A stretch of 64,000 nt of DNA, from contig JAIYAU010000034.1 in NCBI GenBank assembly GCA_027488865.1, positions 62,001-126,000 on the forward strand, read 5' to 3'. The stretch comes from Cytophagaceae bacterium (GTDB lineage: Bacteria > Bacteroidota > Bacteroidia > Cytophagales > UBA9547). This document shows positions 10,590 to 17,285 of this stretch, piece after piece (the first letter of the stretch is position 1; each line of letters begins with the position of its first letter). The translations under genes were made by a program, and so were the position numbers. The notes beneath the pieces are model-generated. The model saw only the letters and a program-made list of their open reading frames with translations, had not been told where the DNA came from and made no database searches.

Positions 10590-11486
10590 GTGTGGGATTC
10601 AACCATAAAACAATTTAAAAACTACCTTAAACTTGAGCGTTCTCTCTCTGACAACTCCATCGATGCATATCTTCATGATATAACGTTATTTGTTCAATAT
10701 TTAGAAATAAGAAATCTTATTTTAAATCCTGAGGAGGTTAACACTGCTCATATTCAAGATTTTTTGGTGTATGTTAACGAACTCGGCTTGGCTCCGCATT
10801 CTCAGGCGAGAATACTGTCAGGAATTAAGGCCTTTCATAAATATCTTCTCCTTGAAGACATTATTACTAAAGATCCTTCTTTAATCATTGAAGGGCCAAA
10901 ACTGGGCAGAAAACTGCCTGATACATTAAGTTATTTTGATATAGAAAATTTGTTGAATGCCATAGATCATTCTACTGCAGAAGGCACTCGTAACAGAGCA
11001 ATGTTGGAAGTACTCTATAGTTCAGGACTTAGGGTATCAGAATTAGTAGCTTTAAAAATAACAGATACCTATTTTGACATAGGATTGATAAAGGTATTGG
11101 GAAAAGGCAACAAGGAAAGACTCGTACCCATTGGTAGAGATGCAATTAAATTTACCCAAATTTATTTAAATGATGTGAGATGCCACCTTAACATAAAAAA
11201 AGGGCATGAAAATTATGTATTTTTAAATAGGCGTGGTGCTGGACTTACCCGCGTTATGATTTTCACTATTATCAAAGATTTGGCCAATAAAATAATGTTA
11301 AATAAAAAAATAAGTCCACACACCTTTAGACATTCATTTGCTACACATTTAATAGAAGGTGGGGCTGACTTACGTGCAGTTCAGCAAATGCTTGGCCATG
11401 AATCCATTACCACAACAGAAATTTATACCCACCTTGATAACGAATACCTAAAACAAGTGATTACCGACTTCCATCCCCGATCATAG
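10590..11486 (+). CDS. xerD: Tyrosine recombinase XerD-like
   Basis: The 298-residue protein has an N-terminal core-binding domain (about 1-90) and a C-terminal catalytic domain. All catalytic residues are visible: Arg148 (SSGLRVSEL), Lys172 (GKGNKER), His244 and Arg247 (HTFRHSF), His270 (LGHESITTT) and the nucleophile Tyr279 (EIYTH). Length matches XerC/XerD, which resolve chromosome dimers at dif with FtsK. The start is GTG at 10590, with no in-frame ATG nearby. Its 3' end overlaps the convergent small gene by 6 bases. No att sites or transposon genes surround it, so it is the housekeeping recombinase; XerC versus XerD is not settled by sequence alone. Confidence 0.92.
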   Translation: MWDSTIKQFKNYLKLERSLSDNSIDAYLHDITLFVQYLEIRNLILNPEEVNTAHIQDFLVYVNELGLAPHSQARILSGIKAFHKYLLLEDIITKDPSLIIEGPKLGRKLPDTLSYFDIENLLNAIDHSTAEGTRNRAMLEVLYSSGLRVSELVALKITDTYFDIGLIKVLGKGNKERLVPIGRDAIKFTQIYLNDVRCHLNIKKGHENYVFLNRRGAGLTRVMIFTIIKDLANKIMLNKKISPHTFRHSFATHLIEGGADLRAVQQMLGHESITTTEIYTHLDNEYLKQVITDFHPRS

Positions 11487-11852
11487 GTCCTCTGGGTAAG
11501 GAATAAATATAAAATTGGTAAATGACTCCATCACCATGAAGATGCAACAAAACTCATCGGCATCTTTATAAACATTTATAAAATCTTCCTGCTTTTCAAC
11601 ATCAATTAAACCTTTTTGTACAAATTCCTCCATCATTGCGATGTAATAATTCCAAGTGTTTTCCTTTTCACCAATTTTTATTAATAATGCTCCTGTTTGT
11701 AACACTGTTTTTGACATCAAAAAAATAGGATGAGTAGAAATTTTTCTCACCCGCATTTGATATGATGCTTCTTTGAGAAAATCAGCAACTAATACAAAAT
11801 CTTGGGTTATCTTTCCTAAAAATTTGCCATCTAGGGCAGGATCGTTTTCCAT
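11481..11852 (-). CDS. Conserved-looking hypothetical protein, 123 aa
   Basis: The protein is soluble and predicted mostly helical, with no signal peptide or membrane segment. It contains ITQDFVLVADFLKEASYQM near the start and a Tyr/Phe/Glu-rich second half (NYYIAMMEEFVQKGL, DADEFCCIFMVMESF). I do not recognise the family. Codon use looks like the neighbours, and the frame ends exactly at the convergent xerD gene with a 6-base overlap, both favouring a real gene. It is divergent from the ABC exporter operon. No function can be given. Confidence 0.65.
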   Translation of the reverse strand: MENDPALDGKFLGKITQDFVLVADFLKEASYQMRVRKISTHPIFLMSKTVLQTGALLIKIGEKENTWNYYIAMMEEFVQKGLIDVEKQEDFINVYKDADEFCCIFMVMESFTNFIFIPYPEDL

Positions 11853-12011: not shown

Positions 12012-14231
12012 ATGGAGAAAACTAAAGCACATTTATTAGTAGAGAAGGTTGCTGAACTTATTCATCATAGTTTTAATCCCTTCGAATTTCAAAAAAATGC
12101 GCTACACTTAAGTGACAATAGTGGCAACGAAAACGATATAGTTGCTATCATCAATGAGATGCTTGAAACAGCTAACAAAATTCAAATGATGATGTTGCAA
12201 CACTATGCCACGCCTGAAGAATTTGTGGACATTGTTGGTAGATTTGACTTTCCATTAATCGTTTTTACAAAACAAGAAGGTGAGTACATCCCTATTATAA
12301 TCCATAAAAAGAAAGGCAAAAATTGGATTTTTAAGCTTGAAAAGGGTGAGTTTGTTCATTTACGATTCGATAATAAGATTGTGTCATCCTTGATTACCAA
12401 GTCAGAATTTGGTGAGAAATATGACCGACAAATCGTATTTGTTACCCCAGCCTCTATTAATTCACTCATAAGTCCTAACCTTAGCAAAGATGATTACGCT
12501 GACGATCAAGAATTTAGCCCTATTCGACGTCTAATCAGGTTATTAAGCACCGAAAGAAATGAGATAATATATATTTATGTATATGCCATAGCAATAGGAC
12601 TTATAAGTCTTTCCATGCCTTTGGGTATTCAAGCAATCATTAACTTGATTTCTAGCGGAATGATTATTAATTCCGTCGCACTTCTTATTTCTATGGTAAT
12701 TACGGGTATCCTTGTAGGAGGAGGCCTTCAAATTCTTCAAGTATCAATGGTGGAGATTTTACAAAGAAGGGTCTTCGCAAAAGCTGCATTTGAATTTGCT
12801 TATAGAATACCAAAAGTACGCACAGAATCAGTTCTTAAAGAATATCCCCCAGAGTTGATGAACCGATTTTTTGATATACTAACTGTTCAGAAAGGTTTGC
12901 CAAAACTTCTAATAGAAATATCCTCAGCCATCTTGCAGGTAGTGTTTGGTATTATCCTACTGTCCTTTTATCATCCATTTTTTGTGTTTTTTGGTTTTAT
13001 ATTAATGTTAATACTTTTTGTGTTATTCTACTTTACAGGACCAAGGGGCTTAAAAACAAGTATTTACGAATCCAAATACAAATATAAGATAGCGCATTGG
13101 CTTCAAGAATTGGCAAGAACACTAATTCCATTCAAACTTGCTGGTTTCACCAACTTGCCTTTGCAAAAAATGGACTATTTGCTCAATAACTATTTAAAGT
13201 CTCGAAAAGCACATTTTAGTGTGTTAATGAACCAATATAGTTTTATAATTTTTTTCAAAGCACTTATTACAGGAGGAGTTCTTATAGTAGGAAGTTTATT
13301 GGTGATTGACAAAGAAATTACTTTAGGTCAATTTGTAGCATCTGAGATCGTGATAATCTTGATAATCAATGCTATTGAAAAACTTATCGTAAGTATGGAT
13401 GTGGTCTATGACCTTCTAACAGCACTAGACAAAATCGGGCATGTCACCGATTTGCCTATGGAAAAAGAGCAAGGTGCGGTTATTCCGAGGAGTGAAAATG
13501 AGATAGGTGCTTCGTTAGAAGTAAAAGAACTTCGCTATAAATTTCCTGAAACAGAGCAATACACATTAAAAGAACTAAGTTTCAAAATAGAATCTGGCCA
13601 GAGAGTAGCAATAGCAGGCTCAAGTAATTCAGGTAAATTTACACTTATTAACATTTTAGCGGGAATTTTACATGACTATGAAGGAATTGCCACCTTAGAT
13701 AAACTTTCTTTAAGAGATATAGATATTAACAGTCTAAGAGACAATGTAGGAATGTATGTGTCTGAGGAACATGTTTTTGACGGTACAATATATGAGAATA
13801 TTTCAATGGGAATATCTCGTACGAATATTTACGATGTTATGTGGGCTATTGAACATGTTGGCCTGAGCAAAGAAATAAATGCCTTGAGAAATGGTCTACA
13901 AACGCAGATGGTAGCAGGAGGTAAAGGCTTTTCAAGTACGACAATCAAAAAAATAGCTTTGGCAAGAGCGATTGCTGAAAAACCAAGATTACTTATATTA
14001 AACGATTTTCTTGGCACCCTTGACAAAAATGAGAAACTCAAAATGCTCAATTTCTTGTTTGACAAAACAAATAATTGGACACTAATATGTCTTAGTAACG
14101 ACCCAGCAGTAATGGCCTATTGTGACAAAATTATTTTACTAGACAATGGCTATTTGGCAGCCGAGGAAACTTATGAAAATCTCGTAAGAATCGATTGGTT
14201 TAGAGATACTTTGGGTAAGGACAAAGAATAA
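12012..14231 (+). CDS. ABC exporter of type-I-secretion type with degenerate ATPase motifs
   Basis: The 739-residue protein has the HlyB/PCAT layout: a soluble N-terminal region (about 1-170, possibly a C39-like domain without visible catalytic residues), a six-helix ABC membrane domain (about 185-460) and a nucleotide-binding domain (about 495-739). The NBD fold is clear but its catalytic signatures are altered: Walker A reads GSSNSGKFT (Ser to Phe543 after Lys542); the Q-loop position is Glu585 or Glu586; the signature LSGGQ is replaced by FSSTT (640-644); Walker B ends in Asn664-Asp665 instead of Asp-Glu; the switch His is Asn696. The D-loop GTLD remains. It is the first gene of an operon with HlyD and TolC homologues. 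ATP hydrolysis is doubtful; a partner ATPase or regulatory role is possible. Confidence 0.85.
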   Translation: MEKTKAHLLVEKVAELIHHSFNPFEFQKNALHLSDNSGNENDIVAIINEMLETANKIQMMMLQHYATPEEFVDIVGRFDFPLIVFTKQEGEYIPIIIHKKKGKNWIFKLEKGEFVHLRFDNKIVSSLITKSEFGEKYDRQIVFVTPASINSLISPNLSKDDYADDQEFSPIRRLIRLLSTERNEIIYIYVYAIAIGLISLSMPLGIQAIINLISSGMIINSVALLISMVITGILVGGGLQILQVSMVEILQRRVFAKAAFEFAYRIPKVRTESVLKEYPPELMNRFFDILTVQKGLPKLLIEISSAILQVVFGIILLSFYHPFFVFFGFILMLILFVLFYFTGPRGLKTSIYESKYKYKIAHWLQELARTLIPFKLAGFTNLPLQKMDYLLNNYLKSRKAHFSVLMNQYSFIIFFKALITGGVLIVGSLLVIDKEITLGQFVASEIVIILIINAIEKLIVSMDVVYDLLTALDKIGHVTDLPMEKEQGAVIPRSENEIGASLEVKELRYKFPETEQYTLKELSFKIESGQRVAIAGSSNSGKFTLINILAGILHDYEGIATLDKLSLRDIDINSLRDNVGMYVSEEHVFDGTIYENISMGISRTNIYDVMWAIEHVGLSKEINALRNGLQTQMVAGGKGFSSTTIKKIALARAIAEKPRLLILNDFLGTLDKNEKLKMLNFLFDKTNNWTLICLSNDPAVMAYCDKIILLDNGYLAAEETYENLVRIDWFRDTLGKDKE

Positions 14232-14254: not shown

Positions 14255-15637
14255 ATGCTTAATCTATCACAAAACAAAATAAGGGATAAAATTAACCAAA
14301 GTGAGTTATACTCGATGAGTATGATGCATAGTCATAGATTTGGCAGAATTGTCGCTTATGTTGTGTGCGGCATGTTTGGCTTATTCTTTTGTATTATGTT
14401 TTTGCCTTGGCAGCAAAATATATTTTCCACCGAAGGTTCTGTCACCGCACTTTATCCAGAAGATAGACCACAGACCATAGAAACCACTATTGCTGGCCGA
14501 ATAGAAAAATGGCATATCCACGAAGGACAACACGTAAAAAAAGGGGATCAAATTATTACGTTATCAGAAGTCAAGGATAAATTTTTCGATCCAGAACTTA
14601 TCATTAGGTTAAATGAACAGCTTGAGTCAAAAAACCAAGTGATTATAGCTACTCAAAACAAAGTAAAAGCACAAGAAGCACAAATTAATGCCTTACAAAA
14701 TGCTTTCGCCTACAGCCTTGAAAAAGCTAAAAACAAAGTAAAACAAGCTCAACTAAAAAACTATAGTGATAGCACAGATCTAGTAGCCGAAAAAATTAAT
14801 CTGCAAGTAGCTATAAATCAATTTGACAGAAGTGTAAAAATGTACGAACAAGGCGTGATACCTTTGGTTGAATTTGAAAAAAGAAGATTAAAACAGCAAG
14901 AATCAGCCGCCAAACTTGTTTCAATTGAAAACAAATATTTAGCAAGCAAAAACGAATTACTAAACACAAAAATTGAACTAAACTCAATTAAGGCAGAATA
15001 TGCTGACAAAATATCAAAAGCAGAATCAGAAAAAAGTTCAGCAATTGCTTATGGTGCTAATTCAGAAGGTGAATATTCTAAAATCAAAAATGAAATTGCT
15101 AACATCACAATTCGTAATGAGCAATATATCATTCATGCACCACAAAACGGTTTTATAGTTAAGGCCATAAAAGCAGGCATCGGACAAACACTAAAAGAAG
15201 GTGAGGCAGTTGTAAGCATAATGCCCGAATCTCCTACAGTTGCAGCTGAGATATACGTTTATCCCATGAACGTGCCGTTGATAAGTAAAGGTCGTAAGGT
15301 AAGAATTGAGTTTGACGGTTGGCCAGCCTTGCAATTTTCTGGTTGGCCAAGTGTAGCCGTTGGTACATTTGGTGGGCGTGTAGAGGTAATAGATCAAGTA
15401 CCAAGTAAATCTGGCAAATTTAGGCTACTTGTTGTACCTGATGAACACGACGAGCCCTGGCCTAAACAATTAAGAATAGGTTCTGGTGTAAAAGGATGGG
15501 CCATGCTAGATGAAGTACCAATTTGGTACGAGGTTTGGCGTCAATTAAACGGTTTTCCACCTTCGTTAAAAGAGAAACCAACTGAGGTAGAAGGAATTGG
15601 GAAAAAGGGAAGTTCTGATAAATCATCAGATTACTAG
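14255..15637 (+). CDS. HlyD-family membrane fusion (periplasmic adaptor) protein
   Basis: This 460-residue protein has one N-terminal membrane anchor (about 31-51). A lipoyl/barrel-sandwich half-motif follows (IAGRIEKWHIHEGQHVKKGDQI, about 85-106), then a long Lys/Glu/Gln-rich coiled-coil hairpin (about 125-280). The second lipoyl half is IIHAPQNGFIVKAIKAGIGQ (about 292), and a beta-barrel with RIEFDGWPALQFSGWP follows. The C-terminus has VPIWYEVWRQLNGFPP, a motif I associate with one adaptor subfamily. It bridges the inner-membrane exporter and the TolC channel. The gene sits 23 bases after the degenerate exporter and 6 bases before tolC, so the three form one tripartite unit. Confidence 0.9.
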   Translation: MLNLSQNKIRDKINQSELYSMSMMHSHRFGRIVAYVVCGMFGLFFCIMFLPWQQNIFSTEGSVTALYPEDRPQTIETTIAGRIEKWHIHEGQHVKKGDQIITLSEVKDKFFDPELIIRLNEQLESKNQVIIATQNKVKAQEAQINALQNAFAYSLEKAKNKVKQAQLKNYSDSTDLVAEKINLQVAINQFDRSVKMYEQGVIPLVEFEKRRLKQQESAAKLVSIENKYLASKNELLNTKIELNSIKAEYADKISKAESEKSSAIAYGANSEGEYSKIKNEIANITIRNEQYIIHAPQNGFIVKAIKAGIGQTLKEGEAVVSIMPESPTVAAEIYVYPMNVPLISKGRKVRIEFDGWPALQFSGWPSVAVGTFGGRVEVIDQVPSKSGKFRLLVVPDEHDEPWPKQLRIGSGVKGWAMLDEVPIWYEVWRQLNGFPPSLKEKPTEVEGIGKKGSSDKSSDY

Positions 15638-15643
15638 CTACAC

Positions 15644-17074
15644 ATGAAACAAGACAAAACAAATAATCTTGACCTTTTTAAACCCATGTATTGGTGTTTG
15701 TTATTATTTAGTGCTGTATCTTCGTTGTTCGCTCAAAATAAAATATTAACATTTGAGTCATATTACAATCAAGTACTTGAAAATCATCCAATTGCAAAAC
15801 AAGCTAACCTTCTTGATGAAATGGCCAAAATGGAAGTTCGAACGGCAAGAGGAGGGTTTGACCCTAAATTGGATTTAGATTGGAATAGAAAAATATTTAA
15901 AGACACTGTTTATTACGACTACAAAGACTTTGGCCTAAAAGTACCAACTTGGTTTGGTGCTAACCTTATGGCTGGTTTTCAACAAAACGCAGGCAAAAAC
16001 ATTAACCCAGCGGAATTTACTCCATCGGAAGGTCTTTGGTATTTAGGTCTTGATTTTAATATTGTACAAAGTGTCGTAATAGACGAAAGAAGAGCTGTAC
16101 TTAAAATGGCATTGGCCATGAAACAAATTAACGATGCTGAAAAAATTAAAATCATAAATAAAATACTATTAAACGCAGCCAAAGACTATTGGGAATGGTA
16201 TTTTTATTATAACAGATATTTGATTCGTAAAAAAAGCTACCAATTAGCAGAAGCGCGTTACAAAGGAATTACTCAACGTGTTATTGGTGGGGATTTAGCT
16301 CCTATGGATTCTATTGAAGGAAAAGTTACATTACAAGAACGGTACGTTGATCTTCAAGACGCTCTTAATGATTTTCAAAATGCAGCATTGTCAGTATCCA
16401 ATTATTTGTGGACAACAGACCAAGAACCTTTAGAAATTTCAGAAAACACCCTCCCAGAAGATAAAAAGGACTATAATCTAACCAGTGACACCACCTTAGC
16501 TCCTTTATTGGAACATGCTGAAAATAGTCATCCTGAAATCTTAAAATTAAAATTTAAAATTACCCAACTTGAGATAGATAAAAAGTTAAAATTTATGCAA
16601 ATGTTACCTGCGATACAAATCACAGGTAAATACATAAGTACGCCCAATCGCACCTTTGCAAATGATTTAACTTCTGATTATTTTTTAAATAATAACCGTT
16701 TTTATATTGGCGTATTGCAACCACTTTTTTTACGAAAGGAAAGGGGTAAATACCAAATGTCCAAAATCAAAATCGAACAGGCCAGTTTTGAACAAATGAT
16801 GTTAAAACGTGAGATCACCACTAACGTTAAGTCTGCCCAAAACGATGTGGTTACCTACTACCAGCTTATTAGCAATCAAAAAAACATGATTGAAAGTACA
16901 ACAGCTTTATTAAATGCAGAAAAATACAAGTTTGATGTGGGTGAGAGTACGGTTTTTTTGGTAAATAGTAGAGAAACCAAAATGTTGGATAGTGAGGTCA
17001 AATTATTTGATTTAATGGCTAAATTGGAAAAATCTAAAGCTATACTCTTGTGGTCTGCAGGAAAATCCAAATAA
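15644..17074 (+). CDS. TolC-family outer membrane efflux protein
   Basis: The 476-residue protein has a signal peptide that ends near SSLFAQ (about residue 30), after a slightly extended cytoplasmic N-terminus. Two OEP repeats of long alpha-helical hairpins follow (about 45-250 and 270-470), with typical segments such as TFESYYNQVLENHPIAKQANL and AARYKG-type helices. It forms the trimeric outer-membrane duct that completes the tripartite exporter. It starts 6 bases after the HlyD stop. Its end is one base from the convergent yidD. Length is standard for TolC proteins. Confidence 0.9.
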   Translation: MKQDKTNNLDLFKPMYWCLLLFSAVSSLFAQNKILTFESYYNQVLENHPIAKQANLLDEMAKMEVRTARGGFDPKLDLDWNRKIFKDTVYYDYKDFGLKVPTWFGANLMAGFQQNAGKNINPAEFTPSEGLWYLGLDFNIVQSVVIDERRAVLKMALAMKQINDAEKIKIINKILLNAAKDYWEWYFYYNRYLIRKKSYQLAEARYKGITQRVIGGDLAPMDSIEGKVTLQERYVDLQDALNDFQNAALSVSNYLWTTDQEPLEISENTLPEDKKDYNLTSDTTLAPLLEHAENSHPEILKLKFKITQLEIDKKLKFMQMLPAIQITGKYISTPNRTFANDLTSDYFLNNNRFYIGVLQPLFLRKERGKYQMSKIKIEQASFEQMMLKREITTNVKSAQNDVVTYYQLISNQKNMIESTTALLNAEKYKFDVGESTVFLVNSRETKMLDSEVKLFDLMAKLEKSKAILLWSAGKSK

Positions 17075-17075
17075 T

Positions 17076-17285
17076 TTATGGTACAGGATCAAAGCCCTTA
17101 CCACCCCAAGGATGACAAGAACATATTCTTTTAATGGCCAATTTTCCACCTTGAAACGTTCCATACTTTTTAACAGCGTCAATAGTGTATTGTGAGCAAG
17201 TTGGCAAATACCTGCAAGCATTTGGAAAAAATGGTGATAACAAAATTTGATAAACCCGAACTATAAAAATTATTATCTTAACCAT
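17076..17285 (-). CDS. yidD: Membrane protein insertion efficiency factor YidD
   Basis: The 69-residue protein has the family pattern: an amphipathic N-terminus (VKIIIFIVRVYQILLSPFFP), then ACRYLPTCSQYTIDAVKKYG and the C-terminal RICSCHPWGGKGFDPVP motif. YidD assists YidC in inserting inner-membrane proteins. Length and the Cys pattern are normal. In many bacteria it lies in the rpmH-rnpA-yidD-yidC cluster; here it stands alone, convergent with tolC and separated from it by one base. Confidence 0.95.
   Translation of the reverse strand: MVKIIIFIVRVYQILLSPFFPNACRYLPTCSQYTIDAVKKYGTFQGGKLAIKRICSCHPWGGKGFDPVP

Follow-up and report, generated by a model that had tools for sequence, protein, structure and literature searches.

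The closest described systems to the locus reported here are the type I secretion exporters HlyB, PCAT1 and LssB, with which it shares the order of a C39-like domain, a transmembrane domain (TMD) and an ATPase domain (NBD), the overall fold and an operon with HlyD and TolC. A second point of comparison is provided by the heterodimeric exporters TmrAB and TM287/288, in which Walker B and other catalytic residues of one subunit are replaced but one consensus site is retained via the cognate partner. As to transport without ATP, SbmA is a proton-driven transporter with an ABC-type membrane domain, for which loss of the NBD and of the coupling helices has been proposed, and its NBD-bearing relative YddA already has part of the glutamate ladder (PMC13316013). 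The NBD-less membrane domain of LmrA (LmrA-MD) has been reported to be proton-coupled, its dependence on the pH gradient requiring the TM6 carboxylate E314 (PMC2704374, PMC6155054). The case for a natural evolutionary series in which a primary transporter becomes ATP-independent has so far been argued mainly from the comparison of SbmA with YddA and from the engineered LmrA-MD. In the open-access literature we found no description of ATPase-less HlyD/TolC ABC systems; a paper on TolC coevolution in Flavobacterium johnsoniae concerns a different pump (PMC10197871).

The stretch of DNA analysed here, hereafter the window, comprises 64,000 nucleotides from a Cytophagaceae bacterium and contains a three-gene operon, the features of which are listed in Table 1. 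Among curated models the 739-aa product of its first gene scores best against those for bacteriocin and type I secretion exporters, yet far under the cut-off in every case (TIGR03796, 172.9 vs 853.3 bits). An AF2 model built from 36 aligned family sequences has high confidence (pLDDT 83.5), and its best Foldseek matches, which extend over nearly the whole length, are PCAT1 (9azl, E 2.6e-31) and HlyB/D (8dck, TM 0.73/0.77); the degenerate NBD (pseudo-NBD) thus retains the NBD fold, as had been supposed in the preliminary description of this DNA. The type IV exporter membrane domain of HlyB, PCAT1 and LssB is present, as is their C39-like N-domain, though the latter is confined to proteins of the ~740-aa length class and is missing from ~570-aa relatives. 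Unlike these exporters, the family falls far below the curated cut-offs, has no working ATPase site and, in one clade, lacks the NBD altogether. We propose that it is a tripartite exporter (ABC-fold protein, HlyD and TolC) of PCAT/HlyB stock which operates without ATP hydrolysis of its own, most likely by means of an ion-gradient-driven membrane domain, a reading to which we assign a probability of roughly 55%. On one side of the operon, a gene on the minus strand (11481-11852) separates it from that of a XerD-like recombinase and encodes a 123-aa protein without a Pfam family; on the other, a 69-aa ORF just downstream of tolC (17076-17285, minus strand) looks by eye like YidD, a membrane protein insertion factor.

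Table 1. Features of the exporter operon and their positions in the window (aa, residues of the 739-aa protein)
Feature	Position	Strand	Basis
739-aa ABC-exporter-like protein (C39-like N-domain, membrane domain, pseudo-NBD)	12012..14231	+	ORF; PF00005 67.5 bits (NBD); AF2 model
N-terminal domain, aa 1-165, in place of the HlyB/PCAT1 C39-like domain	12012..12506	+	whole-length alignment to 8dck and PCAT1; length classes
Type IV ABC transmembrane domain, aa 166-488	12507..13475	+	sole domain left in TMD-only clade
ICL2 coupling helix region, aa 366-384 (E366, R369, F374, K375, G378, L382)	13107..13163	+	column frequencies; models
Glu445 in TM6 (GQFVASE), near-invariant, candidate ion-coupling carboxylate	13344..13346	+	
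Glu456 in TM6, 11 residues (three helical turns) past Glu445	13377..13379	+	
Pseudo-NBD, aa 489-739	13476..14228	+	Pfam; alignment with relatives
Degenerate Walker A GSSNSGKFT, aa 536-544 (G536, G541, K542, F543, T544), lysine kept, Phe543 for Ser/Thr	13617..13643	+	
Q-loop position, Ser584 where Gln expected	13761..13763	+	ABCB1 alignment
Signature motif lost, FSSTT for LSGGQ, aa 640-644	13929..13943	+	
Walker B Asp-Glu lost, Asn664-Asp665	14001..14006	+	
Switch histidine lost, Asn696	14097..14099	+	
HlyD-type periplasmic adaptor, second gene of operon	14255..15637	+	PF16576/PF13437; TIGR01843 below cut-off
TolC-family outer-membrane channel, third gene of operon	15644..17074	+	PF02321 122.8 bits

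Alignment of the 739-aa protein with canonical exporters (including ABCB1) and with its relatives bears out what had been read from the letters alone for Walker A with its Phe543, the signature motif, Walker B and the switch position; a D-loop-like GTLD is seen, and both partner genes, hlyD and tolC, are intact downstream. Two statements need qualification. The claim that the ATPase domain has lost every catalytic signature is a slight overstatement, since the P-loop glycines and the lysine remain. The Q-loop was said to carry Glu in place of Gln; this is off by one residue, as it is Ser584 that faces the Gln while Glu585 adjoins it, but Gln is absent either way.

The same losses recur throughout the family. 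Within the family group a complete or almost complete homologue occurs in each of the 10 genomes (that of the window is one of them), always without the catalytic set. Of the 291 genomes in the window's order, 225 contain a family match and, with deeper-branching relatives included, so do 99 of 392 genomes across the phylum; organisms with a homologue include Chitinophaga, Flammeovirga, Pontibacter, Hymenobacter, Spirosoma, Larkinella, Algoriphagus, Roseivirga, Salegentibacter, Polaribacter and Saprospiraceae. Our comparison set of 196 sequences contains 162 NBD-bearing ingroup proteins, mostly from Bacteroidota, and an outgroup of 18 deeper-branching relatives in the phylum. Among the 162, the complete catalytic set and an exact LSGGQ are found in none, the Walker B Asp-Glu in one and the aligned switch His in one other, and the GK of Walker A is kept in 154. 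The substitutes vary by lineage (ND, ED, DD, KD or DN in Walker B; N, S, D or K for His). In the outgroup, Asp-Glu (17/18), His (14/18) and Walker A GK[ST] (18/18) are mostly kept while the signature is weakened, for example to LSTGQ or LPxGL, and the signature therefore seems, from this alignment, to have eroded before the other sites. Near-canonical relatives, which by the preliminary description would have marked this copy as decaying, exist solely in deeper-branching lineages, and judging from the aligned residues the loss of the signature, the catalytic Glu and the switch His is class-wide and ancient.

In the light of this distribution, recent pseudogene decay of the window copy, which the preliminary description had argued against, is hardly credible. 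A decayed second copy, a TMD remnant with a frame of 233 aa, does lie elsewhere in the same genome, but the frames are intact in all family-group relatives, which have the same losses, the losses extend through the class, and the NBD is under purifying selection in related pairs; we have rejected decay on these grounds. The pseudo-NBD dN/dS amounts to about 0.015-0.15 (Nei-Gojobori) in close pairs elsewhere in the family with dS below about 1.3, most pairs being saturated and the window gene having no close enough relative. Such low values imply that the retained pseudo-NBD has some role, which by its residues would not be ordinary catalysis, and the earlier notion of a conserved pseudo-ATPase is well matched by the family survey. 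One might object that the pseudo-NBD still hydrolyses ATP in an unconventional or residual manner with other residues, such as a conserved S/T-N-D-P and Asp665, and the low dN/dS, the frequent retention of the Walker A GK and the conservation of some replacement residues, e.g. [ST]-N-D, would all be in keeping with this. We nevertheless consider it very improbable, because the replacement residues differ among lineages, because the homologues of sphingomonads lack the P-loop Lys as well, and because one clade has no NBD with which to hydrolyse anything.

In the members of this clade, found in several genomes, Larkinella and Spirosoma among them, the homologue is a frame of 334-367 aa that stops just past TM6. 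Those tested with Pfam match PF00664 without PF00005, one of them scoring just under the PF00664 cut-off, and HlyD and TolC follow in all 16 TMD-only loci inspected singly (L105-L117, L262-L264). In a tree of the membrane domain the outgroup falls on one side of a branch with support of 100, and the TMD-only proteins, which come from four family groups and two orders, form one clade (support 100) nested within the pseudo-NBD proteins. Since the proteins from the second order join the same clade, a single loss followed by transfer fits the tree; repeated independent losses of the NBD were considered and rejected when these proteins were added. A search with the family NBD returned no family-type NBD in any of the 12 TMD-only genomes searched, the hits being generic ABC proteins with E values no better than 8e-28, against 2e-160 in the positive control genome. 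We also rejected the possibility of a split NBD gene, as none was found near the TMD gene or elsewhere in the TMD-only genomes searched and the operon contains no NBD gene; the two matches to another NBD nearby (L107 and L109) are not part of the operon, being at least 3 kb away from the TMD gene. Frames, domain matches and tree together show that one nested clade has dropped the whole NBD and kept its operon.

These observations also bear on the two proposals of the preliminary description, that the protein pairs with another ABC half or that the system is powered differently, of which the second has fared better. ATP power could in principle be supplied in trans, the degenerate half either joining a canonical ABC partner, in the manner of TM287/288 and TmrAB, or borrowing a free NBD. 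Degenerate sites are indeed common in heterodimeric exporters, the P-loop Lys is kept in most Bacteroidota members, and the genome of the window encodes four other PF00664 exporters. The latter, however, are unlinked, MsbA-sized half-transporters, the sampled loci contain no second exporter gene and no linked partner NBD, and no cognate partner comparable to those of TmrAB and TM287/288 was found here. Furthermore, as both the P-loop-side and the signature-side motifs are degenerate, neither composite site of a heterodimer would be complete. Power in trans is likewise difficult to reconcile with a clade that has lost the NBD and with it coupling helix 2, and the dedicated HlyD-TolC operon suggests a self-contained system, so that we regard this alternative, an unlinked partner of the NBD-bearing members included, as unlikely. 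A 597-aa half-exporter (L003; G000:C24), with Walker B Asp-Asp and with LSGGQ and His intact, may belong to an ordinary heterodimer as its degenerate half.

In ABC exporters the coupling helix of ICL2 docks the NBD. Its columns are well conserved in the NBD-bearing members of the family (E366 92%, R369 96%, F374 98%, K375 93%, G378 84%) and are eroded in the TMD-only clade only, while ICL1 (280-294) is invariant there despite the missing NBD; residues 371-376, a short helix in the full-length model, are coil in the TMD-only model. The membrane domain is the better conserved part of the protein. Identity is higher for the TMD than for the NBD in every one of 13,041 ingroup pairs (mean 0.53 vs 0.34) and in 74% of outgroup pairs, and MsbA-like control exporters of the window's order (7 sequences, 21 pairs) show hardly any difference between the two domains (0.72 vs 0.73). 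Within TM6, a Glu stands at position 445 in 177 of 178 ingroup proteins (the exception has Asp), in 17 of 18 outgroup proteins and in all eight sphingomonad proteins, but ComA and PCAT1 have Asn there. Glu456 is kept in 98% of pseudo-NBD, 87% of TMD-only and 83% of outgroup proteins and not in the sphingomonads. As Glu445 is also present in the outgroup, which probably still uses ATP, it did not arise with the loss of the NBD, and its role may be structural rather than ion-coupling.

The operon itself is similarly stable, with both HlyD and TolC downstream in 120 of the 132 loci with enough sequence. This stability, the dispensable NBD and the invariance of ICL1 and other non-catalytic TMD columns would also suit what we see as the main rival reading, a passive or non-transporting platform in which the membrane domain would anchor and gate HlyD-TolC, either for export out of the periplasm or to form a passive conduit. 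Yet the TMD keeps the full six-helix exporter fold, its whole helix core is conserved beyond what an anchor would seem to need, and invariant charged residues lie within TM6, and so we consider a platform rather improbable. In 48 of 110 loci, among them L059 (7703-8413), the gene of a TetR-family protein (PF00440) immediately precedes that of the exporter, mostly at -4 to +20 nt and often with a 4-nt overlap. The window's genome yielded no such regulator at the sensitivity used. Its adjacency in many relatives suggests inducible efflux of a small molecule, lipid or peptide. It is the only widely recurring neighbour; no conserved substrate-like neighbour was found across the loci.

Given that the ATPase site has been taken apart, and in one clade removed, while operon and membrane domain are conserved, the independence of the pump from an ATPase of its own is well supported by the sequence comparisons, and the loss of ATP handling across lineages means that another way of powering or operating it would be needed. 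In the ion-driven mechanism that we favour, a homodimeric membrane domain would work by alternating access and act as a secondary-active transporter coupled to an ion gradient, with Glu445 and perhaps Glu456 serving as the protonation or Na+ site, and would push the substrate into the HlyD-TolC conduit. The retained pseudo-NBD would be structural or regulatory and may bind nucleotide via the P-loop Lys without hydrolysing it. Ion coupling is proposed because of the precedents of SbmA and LmrA-MD and because of the near-invariant TM6 Glu445, with Glu456 three turns on. The likeness to LmrA-MD consists in the TM6 carboxylate, Glu445 and E314 being matched by helix and not by residue alignment; natural LmrA, on the other hand, has a functional NBD, its NBD-less form is engineered, and it is not part of a tripartite system. 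The comparison with SbmA/BacA (SLiPT) is mixed: an ABC membrane domain without an NBD is found in the TMD-only clade, but the window protein keeps its pseudo-NBD, and in that clade coupling helix 2 is lost while ICL1 is kept; Glu445 and Glu456 are compatible, by sequence only, with proton coupling via a glutamate ladder as in SbmA. SbmA, however, is a peptide importer, whereas here the best folds are PCAT1 and HlyB, the operon is that of a tripartite HlyD-TolC system and pseudo-NBD intermediates survive. Seven TMD-only members, which match PF00664, gave no match to the SbmA-type family at E up to 1. Because of this, and because of the other closest folds and the other gene context, we propose that the family works like SbmA but is not a member of the SbmA family.

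That these proteins constitute an undescribed class of HlyD-TolC exporters, ion-driven via an ABC membrane domain and representing an independent natural conversion of a primary into a secondary transporter, is a more tentative proposition, for which we would put the odds a little short of even. If it is true, the whole series from a near-functional NBD via a pseudo-NBD to no NBD is still alive in Bacteroidota, with a pseudo-NBD branch in sphingomonads, and the question of whether ABC membrane domains transport without ATP becomes directly testable on many natural proteins. The family would also point to a further envelope-spanning export route. Most of the annotated records that we examined name its members 'ABC transporter ATP-binding protein', which is a misleading label.

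The sphingomonad branch comprises the same three-gene operon on plasmids of Novosphingobium, Sphingobium, Sphingomonas and Croceicoccus. The eight members examined (L271, from Novosphingobium pNL2, L273 and L275-L280) lack the Walker A Lys, the signature, Asp-Glu and His and keep the TM6 Glu. In the unrooted tree they cluster with the near-canonical relatives (support 99) and not with the pseudo-NBD proteins of Bacteroidota. As the root is not fixed, one loss or two are both possible, and we have not taken the sphingomonad degeneration as a proven second event. Some sphingomonad homologues are annotated merely as 'transmembrane domain-containing'.

A few divergent or damaged copies were seen as well. 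A member from a Gemmatimonadetes MAG (L198) keeps the switch His but has Glu for the Walker A Lys and lacks Asp-Glu; it is possibly an intermediate or the result of a transfer. The remnant in the window's genome (G000:C36:400165-400770) is TMD-only and 37% identical, its match beginning only past the first two helices; it has no HlyD/TolC neighbour, is close to a contig end and lies ~0.25 kb from an ORF that by eye resembles an IS200/REP-type transposase. In two further genomes the family gene is broken into two frames (L120 in G176:C1, with parts ~1.8 kb apart, and L098 in G160:C112), probably by insertion or frameshift.
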